A stretch of DNA of 64,000 nucleotides. It comes from Shinella zoogloeoides. Its GTDB lineage: Bacteria; Pseudomonadota; Alphaproteobacteria; Rhizobiales; Rhizobiaceae. Shown here one piece after another: positions 39,819-63,950 of this stretch; position 1 is the first letter of the stretch; each line of letters opens with the position of its first letter. The notes beneath the pieces are model-generated. The model did not search any database. It was given only the letters and a program-made list of their open reading frames with translations, and was not told the origin of the DNA. The stretch covers positions 3,845,501 through 3,909,500 of the forward strand of contig NZ_CP086610.1 of the NCBI RefSeq assembly GCF_020883495.1, in the 5' to 3' direction. Position numbers and translations under genes: made by a program.

Positions 39819-40877
39819 TTAATCTTCCAGCGTGCCGGGCTTGCGGTCCTTGCGCGTCGCCTCGTGGCAGGCGAGCTTCATCAGGTCCTCGCCGCGCCGC
39901 GCATAGCGGGCGGAGGCGCGGGTGGCGATCAGCCCGTCATGGCCGGCCTTGACCTCGATCGTGCCGTCCGGCTCGCCCGGGCGGGTGATGAGGGTCGCCA
40001 GAAGATCGCCGGTCTTCACGGTCGCGCCGATATCGCGGTGGAACAGCACGGTGCCCGGCGCGGGCGCCTTCACCATCTCGATATTGTCGAGCGGCACGGC
40101 GGGGCCGGCATAGGCCTTCGCCTTGTGCGCCGGGTCGGAAACGACGCCGCGGCCGGCGAGGAAGGCCCAGAGACCGTCCGCATCGCGCCTTGCCATCTCG
40201 GGATAGACGTCGCGCCGGCCGCGCAGCTCGACGGTGACGGCAAGGCGGCCCGGCACGCTTTTCAGCTTCGCGCCGCCCTGGTGCTTGAAGGCATGGCCGA
40301 CGGCCTCCTCGAAGGCGGTGCTTTCACCATCCGAGAGGAACACGGCCTCCATGTCGAGTTCGCCCGCAAGGTCCGCGGCCTCCGGCCAGAAGGCCTCGTC
40401 GATATAGGCATATTGCAGGGATTCGTCGTCGCAGTGCAGGTCCAGCATGAGATCCGCGCCGAGTGCCATATGCAGCAGCGTGCGCTTCAACTGGTCGGCG
40501 GCGCTGCGGCGGTCGAGATTTTCCAGCAGCGTTTCCCGCTCGGCAAGCGCGACCAGCGGGAAGTCGCGGTTGAAATTGGTGCGCGAGGCAAGGTCGAACC
40601 GGCCGCCCATCTCGCCGAAATGATATTGGGAAAGGCCGATGGAATTGGCCTGCGGCACGACGGTGATGTCGCCGCGGATCGCGCCCTCGGCATCCGCCTT
40701 GCGCAGCCGTTCGAGCAGGAAATGAAGGAGCGCCGTGCCGGGCAGCTCGTTGGCATGCAGCGCCGCCTGGATATAGACCGAGGGTGCCGCCGTATCGCTG
40801 CCCTTGAAGCGGAAGACCGGCACGCGCCATTCGCTGCCTGCCGTATCGCCGCTGATGATGATCTCGGAACGTTCCAC
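39819..40877 (-). CDS. Succinylglutamate desuccinylase/aspartoacylase-family protein
   Basis: The GTG at 40877 is preferred because GAGGAG lies 7 bp upstream and there is no good ATG in the family region. The 352-residue product has zinc-ligand motifs ALHANELPG (H..E) and LDLHCDDE, and a C-terminal barrel-like region rich in Gly. It probably hydrolyses an N-acyl amino acid; substrate unknown. The frame extends further upstream but is not family sequence. Confidence 0.85.
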   Translation of the reverse strand: MERSEIIISGDTAGSEWRVPVFRFKGSDTAAPSVYIQAALHANELPGTALLHFLLERLRKADAEGAIRGDITVVPQANSIGLSQYHFGEMGGRFDLASRTNFNRDFPLVALAERETLLENLDRRSAADQLKRTLLHMALGADLMLDLHCDDESLQYAYIDEAFWPEAADLAGELDMEAVFLSDGESTAFEEAVGHAFKHQGGAKLKSVPGRLAVTVELRGRRDVYPEMARRDADGLWAFLAGRGVVSDPAHKAKAYAGPAVPLDNIEMVKAPAPGTVLFHRDIGATVKTGDLLATLITRPGEPDGTIEVKAGHDGLIATRASARYARRGEDLMKLACHEATRKDRKPGTLED

Positions 40878-41008: not shown

Positions 41009-41569
41009 ATGACCGGCAAGACCCACTATCTGATCTTCGACACCGCGGGCGGCCCCTGCGGCATCGCCTGGACGGCGGCCGGCGTCGTGCGCTTCCAGCT
41101 TCCCGGCGAGGACGCCGCCACCACGCGCCGCCTGCTGCTGCGCCACCTGCCGGAGGCGGAAGCGGCTGAGCCGCCGCCCGCCGTTGCAAGGGCCGTCGCC
41201 GCCGCGCAACGCTATTTCGCGGGCGAGGAGGCCGATTTCACCGACGTCCCGCTCGACCTTGCCGGCCAGAGCGACTTCTTCCTGTCGGTCTACGATGCGG
41301 CGCGCCGCCTGCACTGGGGCGAGACGACGACCTACGGCACGCTCGCCCGCGACCTCGGCGCCGGCCCGGAAATGGCGCGCGAAGTGGGGCAGGCCATGGC
41401 GAAGAACCCCGTCGCCCTCATCATCCCCTGCCACCGCGTTCTTGCCGCCGGCGGCAAGGTCGGCGGTTTTTCGGCTCCCGGCGGCTCGTCCTCCAAGCTG
41501 AAGATGCTGGCGCTGGAGGGCATTTCCTTCGCCCCGCCGGAGCCGGCGCAGCAATCGTTCGGGTTCTAG
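41009..41569 (+). CDS. ogt: Methylated-DNA--protein-cysteine methyltransferase
   Basis: The 186-residue protein has the acceptor motif PCHRVLAAGG preceded by the helix-turn-helix block TTYGTLARDLGAGPEMAREVGQ (listed here in parts: TTYGTLARDLG and AREVGQAMAKNP). It removes alkyl groups from O6-alkylguanine in DNA. It is the last chromosomal gene before the guaA scar. Confidence 0.93.
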   Translation: MTGKTHYLIFDTAGGPCGIAWTAAGVVRFQLPGEDAATTRRLLLRHLPEAEAAEPPPAVARAVAAAQRYFAGEEADFTDVPLDLAGQSDFFLSVYDAARRLHWGETTTYGTLARDLGAGPEMAREVGQAMAKNPVALIIPCHRVLAAGGKVGGFSAPGGSSSKLKMLALEGISFAPPEPAQQSFGF

Positions 41570-41644: not shown

Positions 41645-41662
41645 TCACTCCCACTCGATTGT
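41645..41662 (-). other. Integration scar: 3' end of guaA (attachment site, left)
   Basis: On the minus strand the 18 bases encode Thr-Ile-Glu-Trp-Glu and a TGA stop, the conserved C-terminus of GMP synthase. Upstream of the Thr codon the reading frame meets a TAG within two codons, and no GuaA sequence follows. The guaA body must lie elsewhere, most simply at the far end of an inserted element. The guaA 3' end is a known integration site for genomic islands and rhizobial ICEs. Confidence 0.85.
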
Positions 41663-42081: not shown

Positions 42082-44085
42082 ATGTATCTCAAGAATATAA
42101 AGCTCAGAAGCTTTCGCTCGTTCGATCAAGGTGACATCGAACTTCAGAGAGATTTGACCGTTTTCGTGGGCGAAAACAACGGGGGCAAAAGCAACGCGAT
42201 CGACGCAGTTCGCCTGCTTACAACGCCTCTTGGTGGACGGCGGGAAATTTATTGCGAGTCGACAGACGTTCGCTTTCAGAGCGCGACTACCTATTTTGAG
42301 TTGGAAGGGTGCTTCGCAGACCTTTCAACGGGGCAGCAAGGCCGCTTCATTTCGGCCGCCACGGACGCGTCGTTGGCTCAGGCACGTTTCGGGCTGCGTT
42401 TCGATGGGGCTCGATCGGGCATCAAGCCGGTGCTTTGGGCTGGCAAGGAAGGAAATTCGGCCGAACCAGGCTGCCACGAGATGGTTCGGCATGTTTACTT
42501 GCCGCCGCTGCGCGATGCGAAACGCTCTCTGGCGTCCGGCAATCCTACACGGATCATGGCACTCCTAAATCACTTCCTAGAAGGGACGACGCCGGCTCAG
42601 CTCGCGAAAGAACTCGCGCGCACCCACTCGCACGATGTCCTCGTCAAAGTAGACGGTGCAGTCGAGAAGGGTCTGTCAGCCCTTACGTCGGGGGTTCGCC
42701 GACAAACAGCTTCGCTCGGGTTCGCGACGGACGAAGCCTTGGTGGATATCGCCCGAGACCTGAGATTCAAGCTCGCCGACCACGGCGTTGATCCCGAAGA
42801 CCTTCGGTACTCTGGACACGGATACGCAAATCTCCTGTTCATGGCGATCATCGCTGTAGAGCTTGAGAAGGTCCGATCAGCCGACCTCACGCTGTTCCTC
42901 GTGGAGGAGCCAGAGGCGCATCTCCATCCCCAGCTTCAGGCGGCCGTCCTTGCCTTCTTGAGAGACCAGGCAGAGCAATCGCGCAAAGACGCGCCGGCCG
43001 ACCACGCTCCATCCGGAGAGCTCCAGGTGATCGTCGCGACGCATTCGCCAAACCTTTCGGCGTGGGTCAACAGCGACCGACTTGTCGTGTTTAAGTCCGT
43101 CGTGGCGAGCGCCGAGCCGACGCCGGTTGGCGAAGCAACCATCGAGCCGGCCGTTGCCGACGCGGCGGTCATCGGAAGTGGGCTGGGAGCGGACCATACT
43201 GAGACCGACGTGGCGGGCACCGATGGGCTCACCGCCGCTATGACGGCGGCGGCACTTCGCAGGTCCACCCGCTGCATTCCCCTATCGCTGATGCCGCTGG
43301 ATGCGCTGGAGCGCCGCAAGGTCGATCGCTACCTCGATGTCACCAAGGCGGCGCTGTTGTTTGGCGGACGTGTCTTGCTCGTGGAGGGGATTGCAGAAGC
43401 CCTTCTCCTCCCAGCCATCGCGAAGCATCATACGCTGAAGGACCATCCCGACCAACTTCGTCTGTTCAGATCAACGGTGTTTGTCCCAATCGACGGCGTC
43501 GATTTCAGCCCGTACGCGACGCTACTCCTGACGACAGTCAATGGAGCTCGCATAGCGGACCGCGTCGTCATCCTGACGGACGGTGACAAAGGAACGGGCG
43601 ACAGCGACGATGACGATGAAGAGGAGCTGCCGAGCGACACCGCGGAAAAGGTCCTCGATAGCCCCGCTTCGGAAGAAGACGCGCCCGTGGTTTCCGACGA
43701 AGATAATGTGGCCGACGCGCAAGAGCCACCTATTCCGGGTGAGATGCGTAAGGCTGCATTGATGAGTCTGGCCAGCTCGCTCGGCGCGAGCGAGCATCTT
43801 GCAGCCGTCACGAGCATCTACTCGCTGGAGACCGAACTGCTGGAGGCGGGCAATTCCGCCATCCTTCGCAAGGCGTACCTGACGCTTCACCCAAGATCGA
43901 AAAAGAAGTGGGACAACGCCGTTGCGTTCAGCGGAGATGAACGTGCGAAGAAAATCCACGAGATATTCAAGAAGACCCGCAAGGGCGATTTCGCTCAGAT
44001 TCTCGCTCGTTTGATCGAGGATGGCGACGCATTCGTGGTCCCCGCCTACATCGCGAAGGCCATTGAGGAGGTCGTCGTCCCGTGA
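42082..44085 (+). CDS. gajA: Gabija defence protein GajA (OLD-like ATPase-Toprim nuclease)
   Basis: The 667-residue protein begins with an ABC/SMC-type ATPase: Walker A GENNGGKS (residues 30-37), Walker B LTLFLVEEPEAHLHP (about 269-283) and H-loop VATHSP (His321). A Toprim nuclease domain follows, with VEG (Glu435) and TDGD (Asp500 and Asp502). GajA of Gabija is a nucleotide-gated endonuclease that attacks phage DNA. A very acidic, low-complexity stretch follows the Toprim aspartates (about 506-553). The next gene is a UvrD-like helicase overlapping by 4 bp, which completes the Gabija pair. Confidence 0.9.
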   Translation: MYLKNIKLRSFRSFDQGDIELQRDLTVFVGENNGGKSNAIDAVRLLTTPLGGRREIYCESTDVRFQSATTYFELEGCFADLSTGQQGRFISAATDASLAQARFGLRFDGARSGIKPVLWAGKEGNSAEPGCHEMVRHVYLPPLRDAKRSLASGNPTRIMALLNHFLEGTTPAQLAKELARTHSHDVLVKVDGAVEKGLSALTSGVRRQTASLGFATDEALVDIARDLRFKLADHGVDPEDLRYSGHGYANLLFMAIIAVELEKVRSADLTLFLVEEPEAHLHPQLQAAVLAFLRDQAEQSRKDAPADHAPSGELQVIVATHSPNLSAWVNSDRLVVFKSVVASAEPTPVGEATIEPAVADAAVIGSGLGADHTETDVAGTDGLTAAMTAAALRRSTRCIPLSLMPLDALERRKVDRYLDVTKAALLFGGRVLLVEGIAEALLLPAIAKHHTLKDHPDQLRLFRSTVFVPIDGVDFSPYATLLLTTVNGARIADRVVILTDGDKGTGDSDDDDEEELPSDTAEKVLDSPASEEDAPVVSDEDNVADAQEPPIPGEMRKAALMSLASSLGASEHLAAVTSIYSLETELLEAGNSAILRKAYLTLHPRSKKKWDNAVAFSGDERAKKIHEIFKKTRKGDFAQILARLIEDGDAFVVPAYIAKAIEEVVVP

Positions 44086-45815
44086 CCATCTCCTCGTATG
44101 CTCCGACCCAAGAGCAGCAGAACGTCATCGATCACGCTGGCACGGCGTTTGTAACCGCCTGCCCTGGCGCGGGTAAGACCAGGACGATGGTCGAGCGCGC
44201 CCGTCAGTTGCTAAATCATCCAGGCGACCGACGCGGTGTCGCGTTCCTGTCGTTCACAAACGCCGCGGTCGACGAACTGGAGGCACGCCTCCGCGCCTTC
44301 GGCGTGCTCCCGGCGCCGTTGTTTCCGAGTTTCATAGGAACGTTCGATCGATTTCTCTGGCAGTTTTTGATCGCACCATTCGGCATTCCCAATTGCGATC
44401 AATTGCCGAAGCTTGTCCCCGACAAGAGCAATTGGGAGGTGAAGCCTCCCTACGACGGCGCTCAGGCGCTCCGGTTGCGTTGCTTTGATCGCGCGACGGG
44501 CAAGGTAATTCCCATTCTCGCGAAGGACGAGGGTTTCGACGTCGACAAGCGCCAGATCGCAGCGCATGAGACCAGCGCACTCTCAACGATCAGACGTGCG
44601 CGAAGCCAGGGCCAAATTGACTTCGAAGATGTCCGTGTCTGCGTCCGTGAAAGACTGTCCGACGTGGCCTTCGCGAAGCGCGTCGGTGCCGCGCTCGCTG
44701 CCCGATTTCGGGAGATCATTGTCGACGAAGCGCAGGACTGTAACCCTGCCGATCTTGAGATTGTTGATTGGCTGCGGGCATCTGGGATCAGAGTGAAGGT
44801 CATCTGCGACCCCAACCAGTCTATCTACGAATTCCGGGGCGGCGTGACCGACGAACTTCAACGGTTCGCCGCGACGTTCGACGCAACGGATCGTTTGCCA
44901 ATGAGCGGCAATTTCAGATCCAGCCCGGCAATCTGTGCGGCGATCGTGACGCTGCGACCGCCGTCATCGCGCTCCGAGCCAGACAAACCGTTAGGCCCGC
45001 ATCGAGTCGATACAACGCCGGTACATATCCTGTCGTACAGCGGAAGCGCGGTCTCTCCGGCTATCGGCTCAGCCTTCCGGGACCTCGTTGAGGGGCTGAC
45101 CATCCCCCTACACCTCGCGCCAGTTCTAGCATCCACGCGGGCCAGTGCTTCAAAAGCCATCGGTCAGCCGACGATTGAGCCGACCGCCCACATGACGCTC
45201 CTTTTGGCGGAAGCGGCCATGAACTATCATTTCGCGTTCGCTGTAGGAAATCGTCGTGACGCACTCATCAACCTGCACCGCATCGTCCTGCTGGTTCAGG
45301 GCCGCATCGGTGCGTTGGGAGGCTATCACAGCTACCTTTTGAGCGAAGGGCTTGAGGACGGCCGCTGGCGTCCAGAGATCATCGCACTCGCCAATGGCCT
45401 TCGCTTCGACCAGGCCGATACAGTTGATCAATGGCTGGCCAGAGCGCGCAGCCTTCTCGTCCCTGGCCTCGTCGTAAACTCTACCATCAACCAGCGCCTC
45501 AGAGGGCACGCAGACCTGACGACGGCGCTTGCTCGCGCGCCGACAAATTCTTCGCCGGCCCGCACGATTCACTCCGTAAAGGGGCAGGAATTTCCCGGAG
45601 TGTGCGTAGTTATGACGACGAAGACCGCTGGCGCGATCATCGACCTCCTCGAAGGCCAAACCTCAACGGGCGCTGACGAAGAGGCCCGCAAGATCTACGT
45701 CGGAGCCTCGCGGGCGGAACGCCTGCTCGCTATCGCCGTCCCGAAGAGCCGGGCCGCGCGGCTCCAAACCCTTCTCGTCAATGGAGGTTGCGAGGTCAGC
45801 CTTCACCAAATCTGA
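44082..45815 (+). CDS. gajB: Gabija defence protein GajB (UvrD/PcrA-like helicase)
   Basis: The GTG start lies in a GTGA overlap with gajA. The 577-residue protein has superfamily 1 helicase motifs: Walker A ACPGAGKT (26-33), motif Ia LSFTNAAVDE, Walker B VDEAQD (214-219), motif V HSVKGQEF and motif VI YVGASRAERLLAIA. In Gabija, GajB senses nucleic-acid ends and cooperates with GajA. Length and adjacency fit the known system. Confidence 0.9.
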   Translation: MTISSYAPTQEQQNVIDHAGTAFVTACPGAGKTRTMVERARQLLNHPGDRRGVAFLSFTNAAVDELEARLRAFGVLPAPLFPSFIGTFDRFLWQFLIAPFGIPNCDQLPKLVPDKSNWEVKPPYDGAQALRLRCFDRATGKVIPILAKDEGFDVDKRQIAAHETSALSTIRRARSQGQIDFEDVRVCVRERLSDVAFAKRVGAALAARFREIIVDEAQDCNPADLEIVDWLRASGIRVKVICDPNQSIYEFRGGVTDELQRFAATFDATDRLPMSGNFRSSPAICAAIVTLRPPSSRSEPDKPLGPHRVDTTPVHILSYSGSAVSPAIGSAFRDLVEGLTIPLHLAPVLASTRASASKAIGQPTIEPTAHMTLLLAEAAMNYHFAFAVGNRRDALINLHRIVLLVQGRIGALGGYHSYLLSEGLEDGRWRPEIIALANGLRFDQADTVDQWLARARSLLVPGLVVNSTINQRLRGHADLTTALARAPTNSSPARTIHSVKGQEFPGVCVVMTTKTAGAIIDLLEGQTSTGADEEARKIYVGASRAERLLAIAVPKSRAARLQTLLVNGGCEVSLHQI

Positions 45816-45879: not shown

Positions 45880-46932
45880 CTACGCCTTGAGCTGCCATTG
45901 GCTGCGTTCTGACGCCATCCGCCGATAGCCGGACCGCTCGAATAGCGCTGCGACAGCTTCTCCCGCGTCAAGCAGCAGCGCCGCCGGGGGATTTTCATTG
46001 GGGATGTAGAGAACGTATCCGTCGTCAACGTCGTTGCGGGTCACCGGAGTGATCGCATGGAAGGTCGCGATGGCCTCTGCAAGCAGCGCTTCGTCCGTGC
46101 AGTTGATTTCAACGAACAGGTCGCGATCGTCATCATAAACGTACAGGCTTGCGTCGTAGATGAACGAACTGAGTGAGTCGCTGGACGGGTTCGAGAACTT
46201 CGCCGCGAACAGCGTATCGCTATAGCGGCCGGGGTAGGCGCCGTGAGTGCTGAATCCGAACTTCTCCGCGGCGAGATCCACCGCCGGCTCGATCGACAAC
46301 AGACTCATATAGCCGGTCTCCACCGGCATATCGCCCTGGCCCAGGCTCTCGGTCACCAGCCCCAGCGCCGTGCCGGACTGATCGAGCGCCGCTCCTCCGC
46401 TGAACCCACCGCGCGCCATGGCCGATGCGATGAAATGCAGCACCGGAGAATGCCGCACGCGCACAACGGCGTTGATCTGTCCAAGCGTGACAACCTGGCT
46501 CGGAATCGTCGTGAACGGGATCGGCGGATAGCCGATCACGAGAATATCGGACAGCACGAGGTCGTCCTCTCCCAGCGACGCGTCCGTGTGCTGGCCGACC
46601 GTGATCGCTGGCAGCGGCGCGTCGCCAAGATCGACGCGGAAAACCGCGACGTCGAGGCCATCAGGACCAAAATGGGGTCCGTCGATAATCTCCAGTCGGC
46701 GCGGCGGGGCAGTCTTGCCACCAGCTTCTTCACTGAGACGAGCCGACTTTGTCGTCGCGATCTCTTTGATCGAGGCCCCTTCGATCACATGCCGAGCCGT
46801 GACGAAAATTCCCTGGCCAATGTGAAACGCCGAGCCGATCCCCTCGTCCCCCTTTCCATCAATGATGGTGACGAACGCCACGGCTCCTGCTGCTCGCATA
46901 TAGGTCTCTTGGAACGCGCTTTTTTCGGTCAT
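45880..46932 (-). CDS. Trypsin-like serine protease coupled to a Toprim protein
   Basis: The 350-residue protein has no signal peptide, so it is probably cytoplasmic. The trypsin-fold triad is visible: His48 in VTARHVIEG, Asp94 in GLDVAVF and Ser178 in GGFSGGAAL. The last about 110 residues form a separate domain without recognised family. Its ATG shares a base with the stop of the upstream Toprim gene, so the two are coupled. Cytoplasmic trypsin-like proteases in defence islands often act as effectors activated by a sensor. That role here is inference. Confidence 0.8.
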   Translation of the reverse strand: MTEKSAFQETYMRAAGAVAFVTIIDGKGDEGIGSAFHIGQGIFVTARHVIEGASIKEIATTKSARLSEEAGGKTAPPRRLEIIDGPHFGPDGLDVAVFRVDLGDAPLPAITVGQHTDASLGEDDLVLSDILVIGYPPIPFTTIPSQVVTLGQINAVVRVRHSPVLHFIASAMARGGFSGGAALDQSGTALGLVTESLGQGDMPVETGYMSLLSIEPAVDLAAEKFGFSTHGAYPGRYSDTLFAAKFSNPSSDSLSSFIYDASLYVYDDDRDLFVEINCTDEALLAEAIATFHAITPVTRNDVDDGYVLYIPNENPPAALLLDAGEAVAALFERSGYRRMASERSQWQLKA

Positions 46933-48248
46933 CAGTAGATTTCTCTCAGTTCAACCTCGGCCGGATCCCACTGATCGACAGCCATAGCCGTACATTCGGC
47001 AATAAGCAGATCAAGGACCGCCTCAATCTTGCGAACGTCATATGAGCCATCGCGCAATGTCTGAGGGGTCTGTTTCAAAAATTCCTTGATATAGGACTCC
47101 TTGAATTCCAGCGCCCCTTGATAGATGCCGAGGCCCTTCTTGTAGTTGGTCCAAAGCACCTTGGCCGGCGGGTGACCGCCGACCTCAAGATCGAGATAGC
47201 ATTCGATCGCTGCAGCACGACGATTGATGTCCGAGCTGTGCAAGCCCTCGGGTCCTTCAGCCGGAAAGGCGCGAAACGCGTCGAGTTCGGGCAGCATTAT
47301 CCGGCGCATGTTGGCGGGAAGGGTAAGCGTCGAAAGCTTCTGATGGGCGTCGAGCCCCTCGGCGTCGTTATCGAAAACAAAGACGACCTGATTCTGGACG
47401 TCGATTTTCGCGAGGCCTTCGGCAAACTTCACCAGATTGCCAGTGCCGGAAAACGGATGGCTCTCGCTGACGTCGATAAACCGAAAGAAATCCGCGATTC
47501 CTGGGCGCATTAGCGCGAGCGCGTGCTTCAAGATATGCACGTCCGAGCTGCCTTCCGTCGCGATCAGGAACGTCTCGGTGCGACGCGCGTGCGGCACGAA
47601 CTCGCGCTCGGGCGCATAGCCGTTCTCGACTAGCGGCCCATATTGCCAGACGACCGGCGCATCACCGTTTGCATCCGCCAACATTCGCAGCACCGAATAC
47701 GGGTGCAGGATATCGATTAAGCCGCCAAAAAAGGTCCGCTCCGAATAAGCCTGGCTATCGTATGGTCGATAAAAGGGAAACCGCTCAAGCTGCATCCCAG
47801 CAAAGCGACCTCGAATTTTCGCTTCGCTTGCGTCGTCTGAGCCAGAGATGAATGTGTCGTCGAGACGATCGAGCGGATGCGCGTTCACAAACTCCATGAA
47901 CTCCAAAAAGCTCATCGCATCTGGAACAGGCCCGTCCTCCTCATCCTGAAGAGACTGCCTCTCTTCAAGCCAGTTTTGTACCACGGCGTCATATTCGCGC
48001 CGTACCCGCTCCAAATCAAAGCCCAGGAGTTCTAGCCGGGGAACGACATCTCTGAGCTGCCGTGTGAACGCCATTTCGGAAGGTGTGGGATCCTCGCCCT
48101 CCTTCTCGTACCAATCATAGTCGAGTTGATCACTCTTGACCGCCTTCCGATCTTGTTCCTGAAAAATCGGTCCGTGATCAATTCCCCGGTGGTTTTTACT
48201 GTACGTAATCGACACCCCGGCAACGTCGAGCGTAATCTCAGTACCCAA
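46932..48248 (-). CDS. HEPN/Toprim-associated N-terminal domain protein with a Toprim domain
   Basis: The 438-residue protein starts with a domain resembling the HEPN/Toprim-associated N-terminal domain (MGTEITLDVAGVSITYSKNH). The C-terminal half has a Toprim core: TEGSSDV (Glu232) and VFDNDAEG (Asp293, Asp295). Toprim domains bind metal and cut nucleic acid or nucleotides. It is the first gene of a two-gene operon with the trypsin-like protease and is divergent from the operon at 48603. I know of no characterised system with exactly this pair. Confidence 0.75.
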   Translation of the reverse strand: MGTEITLDVAGVSITYSKNHRGIDHGPIFQEQDRKAVKSDQLDYDWYEKEGEDPTPSEMAFTRQLRDVVPRLELLGFDLERVRREYDAVVQNWLEERQSLQDEEDGPVPDAMSFLEFMEFVNAHPLDRLDDTFISGSDDASEAKIRGRFAGMQLERFPFYRPYDSQAYSERTFFGGLIDILHPYSVLRMLADANGDAPVVWQYGPLVENGYAPEREFVPHARRTETFLIATEGSSDVHILKHALALMRPGIADFFRFIDVSESHPFSGTGNLVKFAEGLAKIDVQNQVVFVFDNDAEGLDAHQKLSTLTLPANMRRIMLPELDAFRAFPAEGPEGLHSSDINRRAAAIECYLDLEVGGHPPAKVLWTNYKKGLGIYQGALEFKESYIKEFLKQTPQTLRDGSYDVRKIEAVLDLLIAECTAMAVDQWDPAEVELREIY

Positions 48249-51108: not shown

Positions 51109-52512
51109 ATGGCGGAAAACGGATCTCTCCTGATCAAATCTATTAGCCAGCGGCAGTTCGAACTGCACGCCCTCTCTCTCGAACAAGGTCCGAACTTCGA
51201 GCCTTCGACGATTTTCGCCGCCTACCAGGTTGGCCGCGGCAGTGCCTGCGGATGCATTCTCCTCGCTCAGGACAGCGGCGCGTTCAGCACGCTGGCATTG
51301 CGACGGCGCGTTGATCACCGCTGGGTCTGCGTCGATCAGCAGGGTCCATTTTCTACGCCTGAACAGGCCCTGGACGCGCTCAGCATCGCCATGCGCGGCA
51401 GCGATGCGCCGGAGCCACTTCCGCCAGGCGCGCGACGGCGCGCGTCCCTTATGAAGGTCGGTCCCAAGGGCATCTCTCGAGAATTCGAGCTTTTGGCCGG
51501 AACGATCAGCCATGTGCCCGCGCTTGTCGCGGTTGGCGAATGCTACCTGGCGCTCCCTAATCCGGACGCGAACTTCGTCAGCGACCTGCAAACCAGCAAC
51601 TTCGCCTCACGCCTGTTCGAGCTCTACCTGTTTGCCTGTTTTCGGGAACAGGGTCTGATCGTCAGGCAGGACCACGTCTCGCCGGATTTCGAGATAGAAA
51701 AAGACGGCGCGGTCTGTTGGATCGAAGCTGTCACAGCAAATTCCGATATCCCCCACGCTGGCGGGATCGGCGACTGGGTTCATGCGCCTGAAGACCGCAA
51801 CGAGCGCCTCACGGGCGCGCCAGCAGAGCGGTTCGCCAAGACGTTACGCGGCAAACTCCAACGCAATTATCAGGCATCCGACCACGTCCGCGGACACCCA
51901 TTTGCAATCGCGATCGCTGACTTCCACGAGTCCGGCTCCATGGTCTGGAGTCGCGAGGCGCTTCCCACCTATCTTTACGGTCTGCGGGCCGACGTCCTCG
52001 GCGGCGGGACATCTCGCCGCGCGATTGGAACGCCGATCACCCATTTGACCGGAAAGCACTCCATCCCCGCCGGCCTCTTCCGTGACCCCGAATTCGCTCA
52101 TCTCTCGGCCGTGGTCTTCAGCAACGCTGGAACGATGGCCAAGTTCAACCGCATGGGGTTCCTAGCGGGCTACCAGCCCGAAGGCCTTAAAATGATACGG
52201 AGTGGCAGCCTCTTCGATCGAACACCGGGCGCACTCGACGCAATCCCGTTCGAGCTGGACGTCAGCAGCCCGGAATATGCTGCATTGTGGCCTTGGGGCG
52301 AGGCCTGGTGTCAGGAGTTGGAGGTCTACCACAATCCGCTGGCGACCCACCCGATCCCGTTCGATTTGATTCCTGGCGCCACCCACTGGTTTGATCGCCA
52401 CGGCGATATCGAGTGCAATACGATCTGGGCGAACTCGGTGCTGTCCTCTGTCACAGAACTGCAAATACCAAAGGGGATGGGCGACTTCGTTCCAGGTGAC
52501 CCGTCCGCGTGA
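51109..52512 (+). CDS. Predicted PD-(D/E)XK-like nuclease protein
   Basis: The 467-residue protein starts after GAGGGG. Near the middle it shows RLFELYLFACFREQG, then SPDFEIEKDG and CWIEAVTA, giving Glu171, Asp193 and Glu206-x-Val208. This arrangement resembles the restriction-endonuclease core, with Val in place of the usual Lys of E-x-K; several divergent families tolerate such a change. The gene follows the HEPN operon at 30 bp and is probably in the same transcript. Confidence 0.6.
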   Translation: MAENGSLLIKSISQRQFELHALSLEQGPNFEPSTIFAAYQVGRGSACGCILLAQDSGAFSTLALRRRVDHRWVCVDQQGPFSTPEQALDALSIAMRGSDAPEPLPPGARRRASLMKVGPKGISREFELLAGTISHVPALVAVGECYLALPNPDANFVSDLQTSNFASRLFELYLFACFREQGLIVRQDHVSPDFEIEKDGAVCWIEAVTANSDIPHAGGIGDWVHAPEDRNERLTGAPAERFAKTLRGKLQRNYQASDHVRGHPFAIAIADFHESGSMVWSREALPTYLYGLRADVLGGGTSRRAIGTPITHLTGKHSIPAGLFRDPEFAHLSAVVFSNAGTMAKFNRMGFLAGYQPEGLKMIRSGSLFDRTPGALDAIPFELDVSSPEYAALWPWGEAWCQELEVYHNPLATHPIPFDLIPGATHWFDRHGDIECNTIWANSVLSSVTELQIPKGMGDFVPGDPSA

Positions 52513-52584: not shown

Positions 52585-53700
52585 GTGACGCGACCGACCA
52601 CATATTTTGGCAGATGGGGCGAGGTTCCCATCGATGCGGACGTGAGACCGTTCAGCACCATCAACCCGGTGCGCGGTGACGCTGGGCGAACGAACCGAAA
52701 GCATCACTTCGTCTCGGTCACCTACATGGACGGCTTCACCAACGACCGCGGGCGTGTCCATGTCTATCGCGCGGAAGCCCCAGAGACACCACTGCCCATG
52801 CAGCCTTCCGCCATCGGGTACGAAAACTACTATTACTCACAGCCGCTTCCCGAAGGGGGGCAGGAGAATCATCGCTTCGAAGATCTGTGGAGCTCCATCG
52901 AAACCGTATGGCCCGAGACAGTTCGCGCGTTACAGGCACGGCGGCTGTCGCCAGCGATCTCCTTCAATGTCCAAGGCATGCAAGCGATCATGCGCGCGCG
53001 CGTGCCTGCCACGCGCGACCGGGTCGCCTTGATGCTCGAAGCGAAGCTCCGTAGCGAATGCAAAATTCTCGAAGAAATGGGCGCCTTGCCACCGGAATAT
53101 GAGCGCTACGCCGGCCAGTTCGACACCATACCCGTCGGCATCAACCCGCATGAAACTCTGTTGGCAATGGAAAGGGAGTTCAAGACATTCGGCGATCTCT
53201 GCTTCCGGCTTGGTTTCGAGGTTCTTCACAACGAGACCGACACAGCATTTCTGACGTCTGATAATCCGGTCTGTAGTTATAATCCGAAGCAAACACTGAT
53301 TACGCGCAGGCCGTATGATCACTCTGGCGAGGTCGAGCTTATTTTCCCGATCACGGCACGGATGTTGGTGCGCGGTACGAGCAAACGAGGCCCGGCCAAT
53401 GTCATCTCCCGTCATCGGACCATCAACGACAAGCAGTTGGTCCGCCGTCTCAATCGCACAATCGCTCAGTTTGCGTACCGGATGACCATTGCTCAGGATC
53501 GATCGAGCGACGATCTCGTGCGCGCGCATGCGGCCCGCGTTCCAACGATCCAGACGGACGTCCGGCGCAATGGCAAGGAGGTCCAGATCCATGTTCGGGA
53601 CGTCTTTGGCCCTCGGCCGACGCTGTCCCAATATATCGACACGCCTGAGAAGGCTGCGCGTCTTGAGGCCAAGTTGGCCGCTGGAAAGAGCGAACTGTAG
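52585..53700 (+). CDS. DUF4238 domain-containing protein
   Basis: The 371-residue protein has the DUF4238 start block RKHHFVSVTYMDGF and a later FLTSDNPVC segment. The start used is GTG 52585; no clear ribosome site is visible. DUF4238 has no proven function but is frequently found in mobile elements and defence islands. A 72-bp gap with a partial inverted repeat around CTTTAG/CTAAAG separates it from the upstream gene. Confidence 0.75.
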   Translation: MTRPTTYFGRWGEVPIDADVRPFSTINPVRGDAGRTNRKHHFVSVTYMDGFTNDRGRVHVYRAEAPETPLPMQPSAIGYENYYYSQPLPEGGQENHRFEDLWSSIETVWPETVRALQARRLSPAISFNVQGMQAIMRARVPATRDRVALMLEAKLRSECKILEEMGALPPEYERYAGQFDTIPVGINPHETLLAMEREFKTFGDLCFRLGFEVLHNETDTAFLTSDNPVCSYNPKQTLITRRPYDHSGEVELIFPITARMLVRGTSKRGPANVISRHRTINDKQLVRRLNRTIAQFAYRMTIAQDRSSDDLVRAHAARVPTIQTDVRRNGKEVQIHVRDVFGPRPTLSQYIDTPEKAARLEAKLAAGKSEL

Positions 53701-53771: not shown

Positions 53772-54362
53772 TCACGAGCGAGCGAACGCGAGCAAGGGGC
53801 CGTAGTCGCCCGCATCGGCGGCCTTAAGCGCCGCGATATACTCCTTTCGCGTTGCAGACGGATCGACGAGATTGACCTGACCCCAGGTGAAGCGCGGCTG
53901 ACCGAGTTCGACCGCGAGCAGATCGCCGATCATGCGAGAGAAGCGGCCGTTCCCGTTGGGATAGGGGTGGATCGCAACAACCCGGTGGCTGAACCGGATG
54001 GCGATTTCATCCGGCGGAAACGTGGAGTGCTCGACCCAGTATTTCGCGTCGTCGATCGTCTGATAATATTCGACCGGGATGCGATAGGCATCGATGCCGA
54101 TGTTGCGCGCCGTCGTGCGATACGTGCCCGCCCACTTCCAGACATCGCCATACATCTGTTTGTGCAGCTCGTTCAAAAAGCCCTGGTCCAGCACCTTCCG
54201 CTTTCGCCGCCCGACCCAGCGCACGGCGTCGGCGATGTTGGCGAGCTCCGCTTCGTTCAGTTCATCGCGCGTCGTAATGTAGGATGGAATGAGCTGTTCG
54301 CGTTCCTCGGCTTCGAGCGGCGTGTTCCCGTCATCGTCACCCTCAAAAAGCGGATCGCTCAT
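53772..54362 (-). CDS. Mobile mystery protein B (Fic-domain protein)
   Basis: The ATG at 54362 forms an ATGA overlap with the gene for protein A. The 196-residue product has the full Fic motif HPYPNGNGRFSR (132-143) and the preceding RDEL block. Fic proteins usually transfer AMP to target proteins. The B protein of this pair has no settled function. No inhibitory (S/T)xxxE(G/N) helix is obvious; protein A may be the regulator. Confidence 0.88.
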   Translation of the reverse strand: MSDPLFEGDDDGNTPLEAEEREQLIPSYITTRDELNEAELANIADAVRWVGRRKRKVLDQGFLNELHKQMYGDVWKWAGTYRTTARNIGIDAYRIPVEYYQTIDDAKYWVEHSTFPPDEIAIRFSHRVVAIHPYPNGNGRFSRMIGDLLAVELGQPRFTWGQVNLVDPSATRKEYIAALKAADAGDYGPLLAFARS

Positions 54363-54823
54363 TCCTTGTCCCACAGCTTGCGCGAGAAATGCGCGAGATA
54401 GTCGGCGACGATGCGACGCTTTTGCCCCTCAAGGTCTTCCACGCTCACCGCCTGGTTTTCGAGGCGCATCGTATGATTGAGATGCGCGAGTTCGTTCCTC
54501 ACCTTGCGCTCGGCTTGATCGAAGAGAATGTCGTCGAGAGGCTTGGTCGGGACGAAGGCATAGACGAGCTGACAGTCGAGCGCTTCGGCTGTCTCGCGCA
54601 AGGTCTTGAGGGTGATCGCACCGGTGGCTTCCGCCTTCTCGATAGCAGGCACACGCGACGGAGCCACGCCCATGCGCTCGGCGAGCTGGCGCGTCGTCAT
54701 GCCCAGAGCCTCCCGAATGGCTTTCGTCCAGCCGCGCGAGGGCGTCAAAATGCGCTCGGCTCGCAGCGGAGAAAGTCGCTTGTCGAGGTTCTTTCTGGCG
54801 AGTTTGGCTTGCTTGTCGCTCAT
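54359..54823 (-). CDS. Mobile mystery protein A (HTH regulator)
   Basis: The ATG at 54823 gives 154 residues with a Cro/C1-type helix-turn-helix (GMTTRQLAERMGVAPSRVPA). It matches the family named mobile mystery protein A. The longer frame to 54946 runs through the repeated operator sites and is rejected. The start codon itself lies in the first operator, so the pair is probably autoregulated, like a toxin-antitoxin module. Confidence 0.88.
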   Translation of the reverse strand: MSDKQAKLARKNLDKRLSPLRAERILTPSRGWTKAIREALGMTTRQLAERMGVAPSRVPAIEKAEATGAITLKTLRETAEALDCQLVYAFVPTKPLDDILFDQAERKVRNELAHLNHTMRLENQAVSVEDLEGQKRRIVADYLAHFSRKLWDKE

Positions 54824-61557: not shown

Positions 61558-61597
61558 CTCTCTAGCCGGGGTGCCTGCACGGCCCCCGTGTAGAGAG
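61558..61597 (+). promoter_or_regulatory. Stem-loop covering the ribosome site of the fseA-like gene
   Basis: CTCTCTA (61558-61564) pairs with TAGAGAG (61591-61597), and inside it CGGGG pairs with CCCCG. The 3' arm contains the AGAGAGG ribosome binding site for the ATG at 61606. In this fold the site would be masked, so translation could be controlled by opening of the stem. Confidence 0.5.
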
Positions 61598-61605
61598 GTT
61601 ACGCT

Positions 61606-62386
61606 ATGCTGAACATCGATTGGCGTTCAGCGGCGGAATATCGACACACGAAGTCTATTCCGGCCGCCGGCTTTGCTTGGGAATATCTACGCCGCGATGG
61701 CGATTATCATCGCGAGTTTCACGCAATCACGCGCATCCGCGAACCCAGCGCCGAGCAATTGGCCACGTTCACGCGGAATTGGGGGTTGCAATTTCGCAGG
61801 CGATCCCGAGACACCCGCCGACCAGCAATCCCTCTTCTGGCAACCCGGCCTTCGCCCTCAAGCCATCGAGCTGTCACCCGTTGACCATCGCGACGGATCG
61901 ACCGAGCCCATAGTCCGGCTCGCGCATCTCGCCGGCCTCGATCTCCGCCGTGCGCCCGATGGCTGGCACGGCATCTGGCAGGTTGATGGCGTGACGCATC
62001 AATTCTGGCTGTCCAGGGCACCGCCGGATGCGGCGTGCTTCTACGCCACCAGCCAGATCATGGACGATTTCTACGAATTGCGAAGCCACGCGGCGCGGCG
62101 CTTCTGGCGATCCATCAAGGGGCGCTCGCCCGGCCCGGACTTCCGCGCCATGCCCGCCCAGCTCCGCGAGTTTCATATCCTCTCGCTGCGGGCGCTCGAT
62201 GCACGCCTGCGCGGCGAGAGCTACCGCACCGTCGCAGAAGTCCTGCTCGGCTTCCACGGCAGCAAGGAGGATTGGGAAGTCGATCCTCGCAAGAACAAGG
62301 CCCGCCGCCTCGTCGCCAACGGCATCAAGATGATGAAGGGCGGCTATCGGCTCCTACTGCACTATCCGATCAGACCCGGCTCCTGA
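61606..62386 (+). CDS. fseA: FseA-like excision activator encoded in two frames (DUF6499 then DUF2285), probable +1 frameshift
   Basis: The first frame (61606-61884) encodes a DUF6499-like N-terminus with AGFAWEYLRRDGDYHREF. The second frame, shifted by +1, encodes the DUF2285 part (WHGIWQVDGVTHQFWLS, LRALDARLRGESYRTVAEVL) and ends at 62386. The overlap has the codons CAA-TTT-C at 61789-61795; slipping of tRNA-Phe from TTT to TTC gives a 259-residue fusion WGLQF-AGDPETP. In Mesorhizobium ICEMlSymR7A, FseA is made in this way from msi172 and msi171 and activates excision. The same order with an RdfS-like gene follows here. A sequencing error or true pseudogene remains possible. Confidence 0.8.
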
Positions 62387-62534: not shown

Positions 62535-62807
62535 ATGGCCATCCGCCCGACAGCGGAGATGCCGCCGCGCCTGCTGCGCACACAGGAAGCCGCGCGCTTC
62601 CTCGGCATCTCCATCCGCACCCTTGAGAAGCATCGCACCTATGGCACCGGCCCGATCTATCGCAAGGTCGGCGGCCGCGTCCTCTACACCATCCACGATC
62701 TCGAAGCCTGGACCGAGATCGGCACCCGCAAATCCACGAGCGACAAGACGGCCGGCACGGTTTTTCCGGCCCGCCCGCTGACGCCGCAAGAGCGGGGCGA
62801 GTGCTGA
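62535..62807 (+). CDS. rdfS: RdfS-like excisionase / helix-turn-helix protein
   Basis: The 90-residue protein has a MerR/AlpA-type helix-turn-helix (LLRTQEAARFLGISIRTLEK, then YRKVGGRVLYTIHDLEAW). Such small proteins act as recombination directionality factors for ICE excision. It lies after the fseA-like gene and directly before the replication initiator, as in rhizobial ICEs. Its TGA abuts the next ATG. Confidence 0.8.
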   Translation: MAIRPTAEMPPRLLRTQEAARFLGISIRTLEKHRTYGTGPIYRKVGGRVLYTIHDLEAWTEIGTRKSTSDKTAGTVFPARPLTPQERGEC

Positions 62808-63950
62808 ATGCTACGCGACGACGATCATAGCCCCGCCGACGCGCACGGCCGCGATTCCAGCGAACGCAGCCGCCTCGACCCCTTCGTAGTCGCGACCGGC
62901 GACGCCGCGCCCCGCGACCAGCGCGACCTCATGGAACGCCCGTTCTTCTCGCTCGCCAAGGCGAAGCGCACCGCACCGATCCTCTACGAATCCGCCGGCG
63001 TCCGCGTCGAGGTGTTCGCCGGGGCCGATTGCGGCATGGCGACCATCTGGGACGCCGACGTGCTGATCTGGGCGGCCTCGCAGATCGTCTCGGCCGAGAA
63101 CAACGGCCTGCGCACATCGCGCTTCTTCCGCTTCACGCCCTATCAGCTCCTCATGGCGATCGACCGCGCCACCGGCGCGCGTGAATATCGCCTGCTGAAG
63201 AATGCGCTCATCCGCCTGCAATCGACGTCGATCCGCACGACGATCCGGCAGGGCGAGCAGTGGCGGCGGCATCAGTTCTCCTGGATCAACGAATGGGAGG
63301 AGCTGATCACCCGCGACGGCCGTGTCGAGGGCATGGAATTCGTCCTGCCGGACTGGTTCTATCGCGGCGTCACCGACCGCTCGCTGGTGCTGGCGATCGA
63401 CCCAGCCTACTTCCGGCTGACCGGCGGCATTGAGCGCTGGCTGTATCGCGTCGCCCGAAAACATGCGGGACATCAGCCGCACGGCTGGCTGTTCGAGGTC
63501 GCGCACCTTCACCAGAAATCCGGCTCCATGGCGCGGATCTCGGATTTCGCGCTCGACCTTCGCCGCATCGCCGCGAAGCAATCGCTGCTCGGATACCGCC
63601 TCGAAATCTACCGCGAAGGCCGCCGCGAGCTGTTGCAAATCCGGCCCGAAAACCTGTCCACAGTGCCTGTTGAAAAGGGTGTGGAAACACTCGTGACTTC
63701 GGGCGCAAAGGGTATCGGGACTTCGGGCGCAGCCCTATCGGGACTTCGGGCGCACGGACCGCAGTTAAGTCTTTGGCCCGACAAGCGGAATCCGACCGCT
63801 AACTTAGAGTCTAACAGAGAATCTAACTTTTCTTCTGAGGCGCACGCGCACGCGAGGCGTGGTGCCGGTGCCGCTCGTTCCGTCGCCGAGGTGCTGCGCG
63901 ACCTGCTCCCGCCCGACCCATCCGACAGCAACGGAGGGCGGCGCTCATGA
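62808..63950 (+). CDS. Replication initiator protein A (RPA family) of the ICE
   Basis: The 380-residue protein has the replication initiator A family blocks FFSLAKAKRTAPILYES, TIWDADVLIWAASQI, FTPYQLLMAIDRATG and WLYRVARKHAGHQPHGW. Its C-terminus (about 300-380) is a low-complexity tail with repeats (TSGA, GTSGA). It probably serves replication or stability of the excised ICE. It starts immediately after the rdfS-like stop and its stop overlaps the next start (ATGA). Confidence 0.85.
   Translation: MLRDDDHSPADAHGRDSSERSRLDPFVVATGDAAPRDQRDLMERPFFSLAKAKRTAPILYESAGVRVEVFAGADCGMATIWDADVLIWAASQIVSAENNGLRTSRFFRFTPYQLLMAIDRATGAREYRLLKNALIRLQSTSIRTTIRQGEQWRRHQFSWINEWEELITRDGRVEGMEFVLPDWFYRGVTDRSLVLAIDPAYFRLTGGIERWLYRVARKHAGHQPHGWLFEVAHLHQKSGSMARISDFALDLRRIAAKQSLLGYRLEIYREGRRELLQIRPENLSTVPVEKGVETLVTSGAKGIGTSGAALSGLRAHGPQLSLWPDKRNPTANLESNRESNFSSEAHAHARRGAGAARSVAEVLRDLLPPDPSDSNGGRRS
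63695..63754 (+). repeat. Three direct repeats GACTTCGGGCGCA inside the initiator gene
   Basis: Identical 13-mers at 63695-63707, 63719-63731 and 63742-63754, spaced 24 and 23 bp, lie in the coding part for the low-complexity tail. DnaA-box-like CTGTCCACA (about 63653-63661) precedes them, and an AT-richer stretch with TCTAAC repeats (63799-63838) follows. The layout is like an iteron origin. Confidence 0.5.

Follow-up and report, generated by a model that had tools for sequence, protein, structure and literature searches.

The question raised by this locus is whether two overlapping open frames encode two proteins, are the remains of one broken gene, or are read as a single protein by a change of frame during translation. 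The window is the whole 64,000-nucleotide stretch that was analysed, and positions refer to it unless a contig or locus is named. The open frames of ORF1 and ORF2 share 269 nt (Table 1). PF20109 (DUF6499) matches residues 5-64 of ORF1 (Pfam, E = 2.6e-20) and PF10074 (DUF2285), which Pfam names RovC_DNA-bd, matches the +1 frame (E = 5.2e-28); no NCBIfam model matches either half. Thus, the original prediction that the two domains lie in neighbouring, overlapping frames is borne out. ORF1 carries AWEYLRRD, which corresponds to the AWEFLRRN-like motif of FseA-type activators. The sequence from 61780 is TGG GGG TTG CAA TTT C, and positions 61786-61800 in the frame of ORF1 read TTG CAA TTT CGC AGG, with TTT at 61792-61794. 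When TTTC is read as a single Phe, a 259-residue product with the join WGLQF-AGDP is obtained. Because a second in-frame TTTC is present at residue 38, the two halves were translated separately and not by a code in which TTTC means Phe. It is very probable that the pair is one fseA homologue, whose halves would be joined by a +1 slip at TTT into a 259-residue activator.

Table 1. Positions in the window of the features discussed in the text.
Feature	Position	Strand	Basis or remark
Possible ribosome-binding site of ORF1, AGAGAGG	61592..61598	+	Sequence; ATG 7 nt on
ORF1, DUF6499 (PF20109) half of the FseA-like gene	61606..61884	+	92 aa if unshifted
ORF2 frame, middle domain and DUF2285 (PF10074) putative DNA-binding half	61613..62386	+	Open already from 61613, listed as ORF2 from 61673 to 62386; post-shift reading from 61796
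Shine-Dalgarno-like stretch, GGGGGT	61781..61786	+	Last G 6 nt before the slip codon; putative role
Putative +1 slip site, CAA TTT C	61789..61795	+	Predicted TTT to TTC re-pairing of tRNA-Phe
RdfS-like HTH_17 gene, probable excisionase, presumed FseA target	62535..62807	+	PF12728, E = 9.6e-9; putative RdfS
repA, replication initiator protein A (PF10134)	62808..63950	+	Pfam
Left element end, an att-like match to the 3' end of guaA (TCACTCCCACTCGATTGT)	41645..41662	-	16/18 bases match

Within the window's family, 91 of 297 genomes contain PF20109; of the genomes drawn from its phylum, 43 of 398 do. In the family, 148 of 149 loci were read (a place in genome G181 was left out), and 135 of them had DUF2285 in the +1 frame, eight were fused, four had it in the remaining frame and one was without it. 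The main set, composed of family and phylum loci, has 164 DUF6499 hits: 148 +1, nine fused, five with DUF2285 in the remaining frame (L048, L058, L126, L129 and L138) and two without DUF2285. Same-place duplicates (L002, L145 and L152) reduce the +1 class to 145 distinct copies, window included, among which are all three fseA-like copies of the window's genome. With the motif TGG GGN as anchor, 142 of the 145 could be placed (L146, L131 and L132 could not). TTT played no part in this selection, since frames defined the +1 class and TGG GGN served as the anchor. The 142 anchored copies gave 95 representatives at <80% nucleotide identity, or 94 for codon statistics, from which L072 was left out. 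The joined frame of one representative, L135, is interrupted by a stop.

Since phylum sampling was limited to one locus per genome, the best match, with a ceiling of 30 loci, and an extra 40 loci were mostly picked for long open frames, no phylum-wide split fraction is given here. The extra loci comprised 30 fused, six of which repeat places of the phylum set, nine +1 and one without DUF2285; seven of the nine +1 loci were anchored, all seven with TTT-C. We also took the best 80 named loci among the matches listed. L172 and L191 were dropped by a position filter, and the 78 classed were 75 +1, two without DUF2285 in the available stretch and one same-frame split (L230). About 61% of 4709 proteobacterial FseA homologues are split according to a passage of PMC10359603.

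At the putative slip site, 141 of the 142 anchored +1 copies have TTT, and the base after it is C (124 copies) or T (17 copies); the exception is L072, with TAT. The Phe codon there is TTT in 94/94 representatives compared with 191/689 at other positions of these genes (binomial p = 4e-53, which is only indicative as the sequences are related), and it is followed by C or T in 94/94 compared with 58.7% at third positions. Among the best 80 named loci, all 75 of the +1 class have CGA TTT, then C in 65 and T in 10. In the joined product, the only coding role of the base after TTT would be at the third position of a re-paired Phe codon. Its limit to pyrimidines is thus what tRNA-Phe would require to re-pair on UUC or UUU. 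Ramsay et al. 2015 (PNAS 112:4104) reportedly described FseA, with its +1 shift and how widely it occurs, and the abstract of that paper is said to give the shift as tRNA-Phe moving from UUU to UUC. As judged from the alignment, the slip site is under selection at the RNA level.

The conserved reading frame changes at TTT. In frame 0 of the 94 representatives, F is invariant and is preceded by R in 62 (the anchor itself fixes W and G), and in frame +1 past the site P is found in 88 and W in 85, without stops. Frame 0 stops within 10 codons past TTT in 43 of the 95 representatives; its unshifted tails extend from 2 to 236 codons and are therefore not conserved. In the first 84 nt past TTT, comparison of the window with its nearest paralogue, L001, gave dN 0.68 and dS 0.04 in frame 0, and dN 0.26 and dS 1.34 in frame +1, values that mirror each other in overlapping frames and count as one result; the direction was the same against L003, L004, L028 and L030. 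For both halves, dN/dS between the window and L001 was about 0.2.

Fused homologues serve as natural controls for the join. The WG motif was located in 24 of 30 (evidently at another WG in L276), and 19 of these 24 have DP in the exact register of the shifted product, as seen from WGLRFGADP and WGLRLLEDP against WGLQF-AGDP of the window. In the shifted products of the 95 representatives, DP is present there in 56, and another residue followed by P in most others. Neither TTT nor CGA occupies the two site positions in any of the 24 anchored fused homologues, four of which have GGG; in L285, WGLRFGADP is encoded with TTC. Conservation of the site and register with the fused homologues uphold, at the sequence level, the prediction of CAA-TTT-C as the +1 join, and the FseA-like design that had been proposed is found in the same two domains, the +1 split and membership in the FseA family. 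The best tree, built from 93 split and 30 fused rows, requires seven changes between the split and fused states. At least five of them are forced by well-supported branches, and a single gain of the shift was rejected.

Synonymous codons before TTT are also restricted. The Gly codon is GGG in 66/94 representatives (background 12.8%), the Leu codon is TTG in 53/83 (background 10.5%), and the Arg codon next to TTT is CGA in 58/62 (background 8.8%; 58/95 representatives overall). The window has CAA in this last position, which it shares within a group of only 3/95 representatives, itself counted. The use of rare codons was considered as the sole cause of this bias and rejected: GGA, AGA, AGG and CTA, although equally rare or rarer in the genes, show no preference for the site, whereas TTA does (6/83 Leu codons vs 1.1%), so that rarity alone is unlikely to be the cause. 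CGA pairs weakly, owing to inosine decoding. Predicted pairing of the 18 nt before TTT with the 16S 3' end, for which we took the anti-SD letters as an assumption, had a mean of -8.8 kcal/mol compared with -6.4 (sd 0.17) in synonymous reshuffles, and -11.4 kcal/mol for the window. The G-rich stretch fits a Shine-Dalgarno-like aid, as in prfB, and it is possible that the constrained GGG, TTG and CGA resemble a Shine-Dalgarno-like stretch with a weak upstream codon. No downstream RNA structure that could act as a 3' stimulator was seen, the mean folding z being near 0 (-0.17 at the site; 60/93 representatives; window 0.19). A word search for the letters of the codon motif, in a body of literature outside Ramsay et al. 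2015, where the site was reportedly described, returned nothing relevant, so no priority is claimed. The synonymous-codon pattern is the only part of this study that might add something new. If the codon preferences prove stimulatory, the strength of the shift would become predictable across many elements.

Several other explanations of the split frames should be weighed against the one-gene reading. The DUF2285 half might start by itself, for example at the ATG at 61697, which is in the window's ORF2 frame upstream of the slip site, and might associate post-translationally with the DUF6499 half, with no frameshift involved. Upstream starts in the ORF2 frame exist in 49/95 representatives, window included, and the Azorhizobium study interprets its pair in this way, with separate start codons taken as a sign of an absent shift in the relevant passage (PMC9601964). 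Set beside the criterion of that paper, the 49 with upstream starts retain the slip site. The other 46/95, counting L135 with its broken second frame, have no ATG, GTG or TTG in the ORF2 frame before the site; besides, conservation of TTT and of the next base would be needless for separate proteins, and the fused homologues keep register through the site. We regard separate proteins as very unlikely. Split frames are often due to sequencing error or decay, and L048, L058, L138 and L135 do look further broken. However, the same site recurs in 141/142 anchored places and in 75 named loci from the best 80, and both halves are under purifying selection; against transcriptional slippage, three Ts make no slippage run. 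An origin of the pair by error, decay or transcriptional slippage is barely conceivable, and comparison of the sequences confirms the split gene as real, neither an error nor a pseudogene.

It is also conceivable that the shift is real but that the tRNA on the preceding codon (CAA or CGA) slips instead; UUC would then be decoded in the A site, giving an identical peptide. The strong preference for CGA speaks for such a slip, as does the run of G ending 3 nt before that codon, the spacing given for prfB in a passage of PMC12421855. On the other hand, the codon is variable, and CAA is unable to re-pair one base on. Moreover, no A or G follows TTT in any of the 94 representatives, though fused homologues tolerate Leu at the residue concerned. 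A slip on the preceding codon is thus extremely improbable.

In the one-gene reading with a +1 slip at TTT, translation would start at 61606 and the DUF6499 half would be read first. The P-site tRNA-Phe at TTT (61792) would sometimes move +1 onto TTC, and reading in the ORF2 frame would give the two-domain activator of 259 residues; when no shift occurs, reading would end at 61884. The activator presumably turns on the RdfS-like gene directly downstream, so that the element beside guaA is excised and transferred. It is presumably restrained by a QseM homologue, encoded at another place on the element, that binds the DUF6499 half. A more doubtful idea is that the unshifted DUF6499 product acts as a QseM decoy; shift efficiency would then set activator against decoy, and CAA in place of CGA would make the window a natural weaker or differently tuned version.

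A gene similar to the HTH gene of the window is found downstream of fseA in many relatives. An FseA box was sought upstream of 62535 as inverted hexamers 15-16 bp apart, and a dyad scan and two promoter alignments gave no clear inverted pair; CGCCA(T/C)(G/C)GT is conserved upstream of the RdfS-like gene, in part as an effect of the chosen anchor. The candidate QseM is a 110-residue DUF2285 protein encoded before the coupling protein gene (L164:7095-7427), with E = 5.2e-16 to the solved QseM 7uqt, a comparison that covers only the lone DUF2285 gene of the guaA-side element. In the window's genome, each of the three FseA-like genes has one of the three short, QseM-like lone DUF2285 genes in its vicinity, at distances of about 0.2, 18 and 28 kb (range 0.2-29 kb). 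The lone genes are at C1:2456357 (L253), 523833 (L255) and 3936307 (L254), and at L003 the gene is directly upstream of fseA. TraR, an AHL-binding receptor of the LuxR type, is the quorum-sensing input in R7A; domains of this kind (PF03472) are encoded in five places in the genome, none of them on the element (C1:3887145 to 3950937). The one-gene reading with a +1 shift is weakened by CAA before TTT, the five remaining-frame hits, the stop in L135, the ATG at 61697, the want of a named FseA box and that of an AHL receptor. In pKvSKV1, a conjugative plasmid of Ketogulonicigenium vulgare (L316), the same order was observed: DUF6499, DUF2285, a lone DUF2285 gene on the opposite strand, a helix-turn-helix gene and repA.

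The original prediction had placed the gene in an element inserted in guaA, perhaps on the strength of the att-like end at 41645; the att-like end, the break in the flank and the spacing in relatives support an element adjoining guaA. The guaA gene is intact (a 523-residue frame) with its stop at C1:3950937, beyond the window, and a tyrosine integrase gene is beside its 3' end. The att-like match alone is weak, because the scan also gave 18-mers with two mismatches at other places. In seven relatives, however, homology to the chromosomal flank stops shortly before the att-like stretch, at 41565-41569, only L257 matching partly beyond, and the distance from the guaA domain to an aspartoacylase-like gene (39822-40877) is 64.6 kb here and 2.1-2.2 kb in 3/6 relatives, from which an element of about 64 kb is deduced. 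The distance in the other relatives is 55.1 kb (G696), 11.4 kb (G695) and 10.4 kb (G691), and these longer spacings are other inserts at the guaA 3' end, an integration hotspot. ICEs adjacent to guaA have already been reported in Mesorhizobium (a passage of PMC8627217).

Past fseA, the element has the HTH_17 RdfS-like gene, repA, and genes for DUF2840, a TraF-like signal peptidase, a lytic transglycosylase and a relaxase; further on are the coupling protein, TrbL, VirB8, CagX and TrbI (Trb/VirB transfer genes). The relaxase scores 668.8 bits against the RlxS model, whose cut-off is 850, and is called RlxS-like only. The tyrosine integrase, the RlxS-like relaxase and the Trb/VirB genes are features of R7A-type ICEs. 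A Gabija defence pair (GajA, 1056 bits, and GajB, 903 bits) is present at the left end (42082-45815), and a PD-T7-1-like defence protein (51109-52509, E = 3e-85) has as neighbours genes for DUF4238 (52585-53697) and a Fic protein (53775-54374, minus strand). At 45883-48215 (minus strand), a trypsin-like peptidase gene beside a HEPN/Toprim-N gene may form a two-gene defence unit; PADLOC gave a weak model match for the former and none for the latter. To the right of the window, between the relaxase and coupling-protein genes (L164:26-6181), are cargo genes for an autotransporter beta-domain protein, a globin, an IalB-domain protein and a LysR regulator.

FseA and its +1 shift were already known, as was how widely they occur, and the window gene is a well-supported new member. 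It would represent another element, by guaA, with the same translational brake on its transfer activator. As a single finding this is ordinary; the slip site is now defined quantitatively from the alignment, with the natural fused controls included.

Among known systems, RovC of Yersinia (6xz5), the sole match in a PDB search with the joined protein, has a DUF2285-type DNA-binding domain in common with it, the sequence match being only at E = 0.8. In influenza A PA-X, the P-site slip is likewise on UUU_C (UCC_UUU_CGU) and codons are restricted on both sides, including the E-site codon (a passage of PMC3498833), whereas gene and host are unrelated and there is no family link. The prfB gene (release factor 2) is a bacterial +1 shift with an upstream G-rich Shine-Dalgarno-like stretch, as here; according to PMC12421855, its CTTT is at a stop codon with the stretch 3 nt upstream, whereas the window has a Phe codon, 6 nt and an A site without a stop. 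The closest likeness is to FseA (msi172-msi171) of ICEMlSymR7A in Mesorhizobium japonicum R7A, described in parts of PMC10359603 as the same DUF6499 and DUF2285 domains in overlapping frames joined by a +1 shift that is reported to be widespread; the shift is also in print in PMC5009743, in a passage on FseA. Unlike R7A, the window's element has no AHL receptor, has the rdfS-like gene, together with repA, directly downstream of fseA and is located by guaA. Gene order past the window's fseA recalls the R7A rdfS-traF-msi107 operon and rlxS as given in sections of PMC5882170 and PMC11963761, and, going by these and PMC10359603, the two have in common a QseM homologue and RdfS-like, TraF-like, lytic transglycosylase, RlxS-like and Trb/VirB genes on one element.
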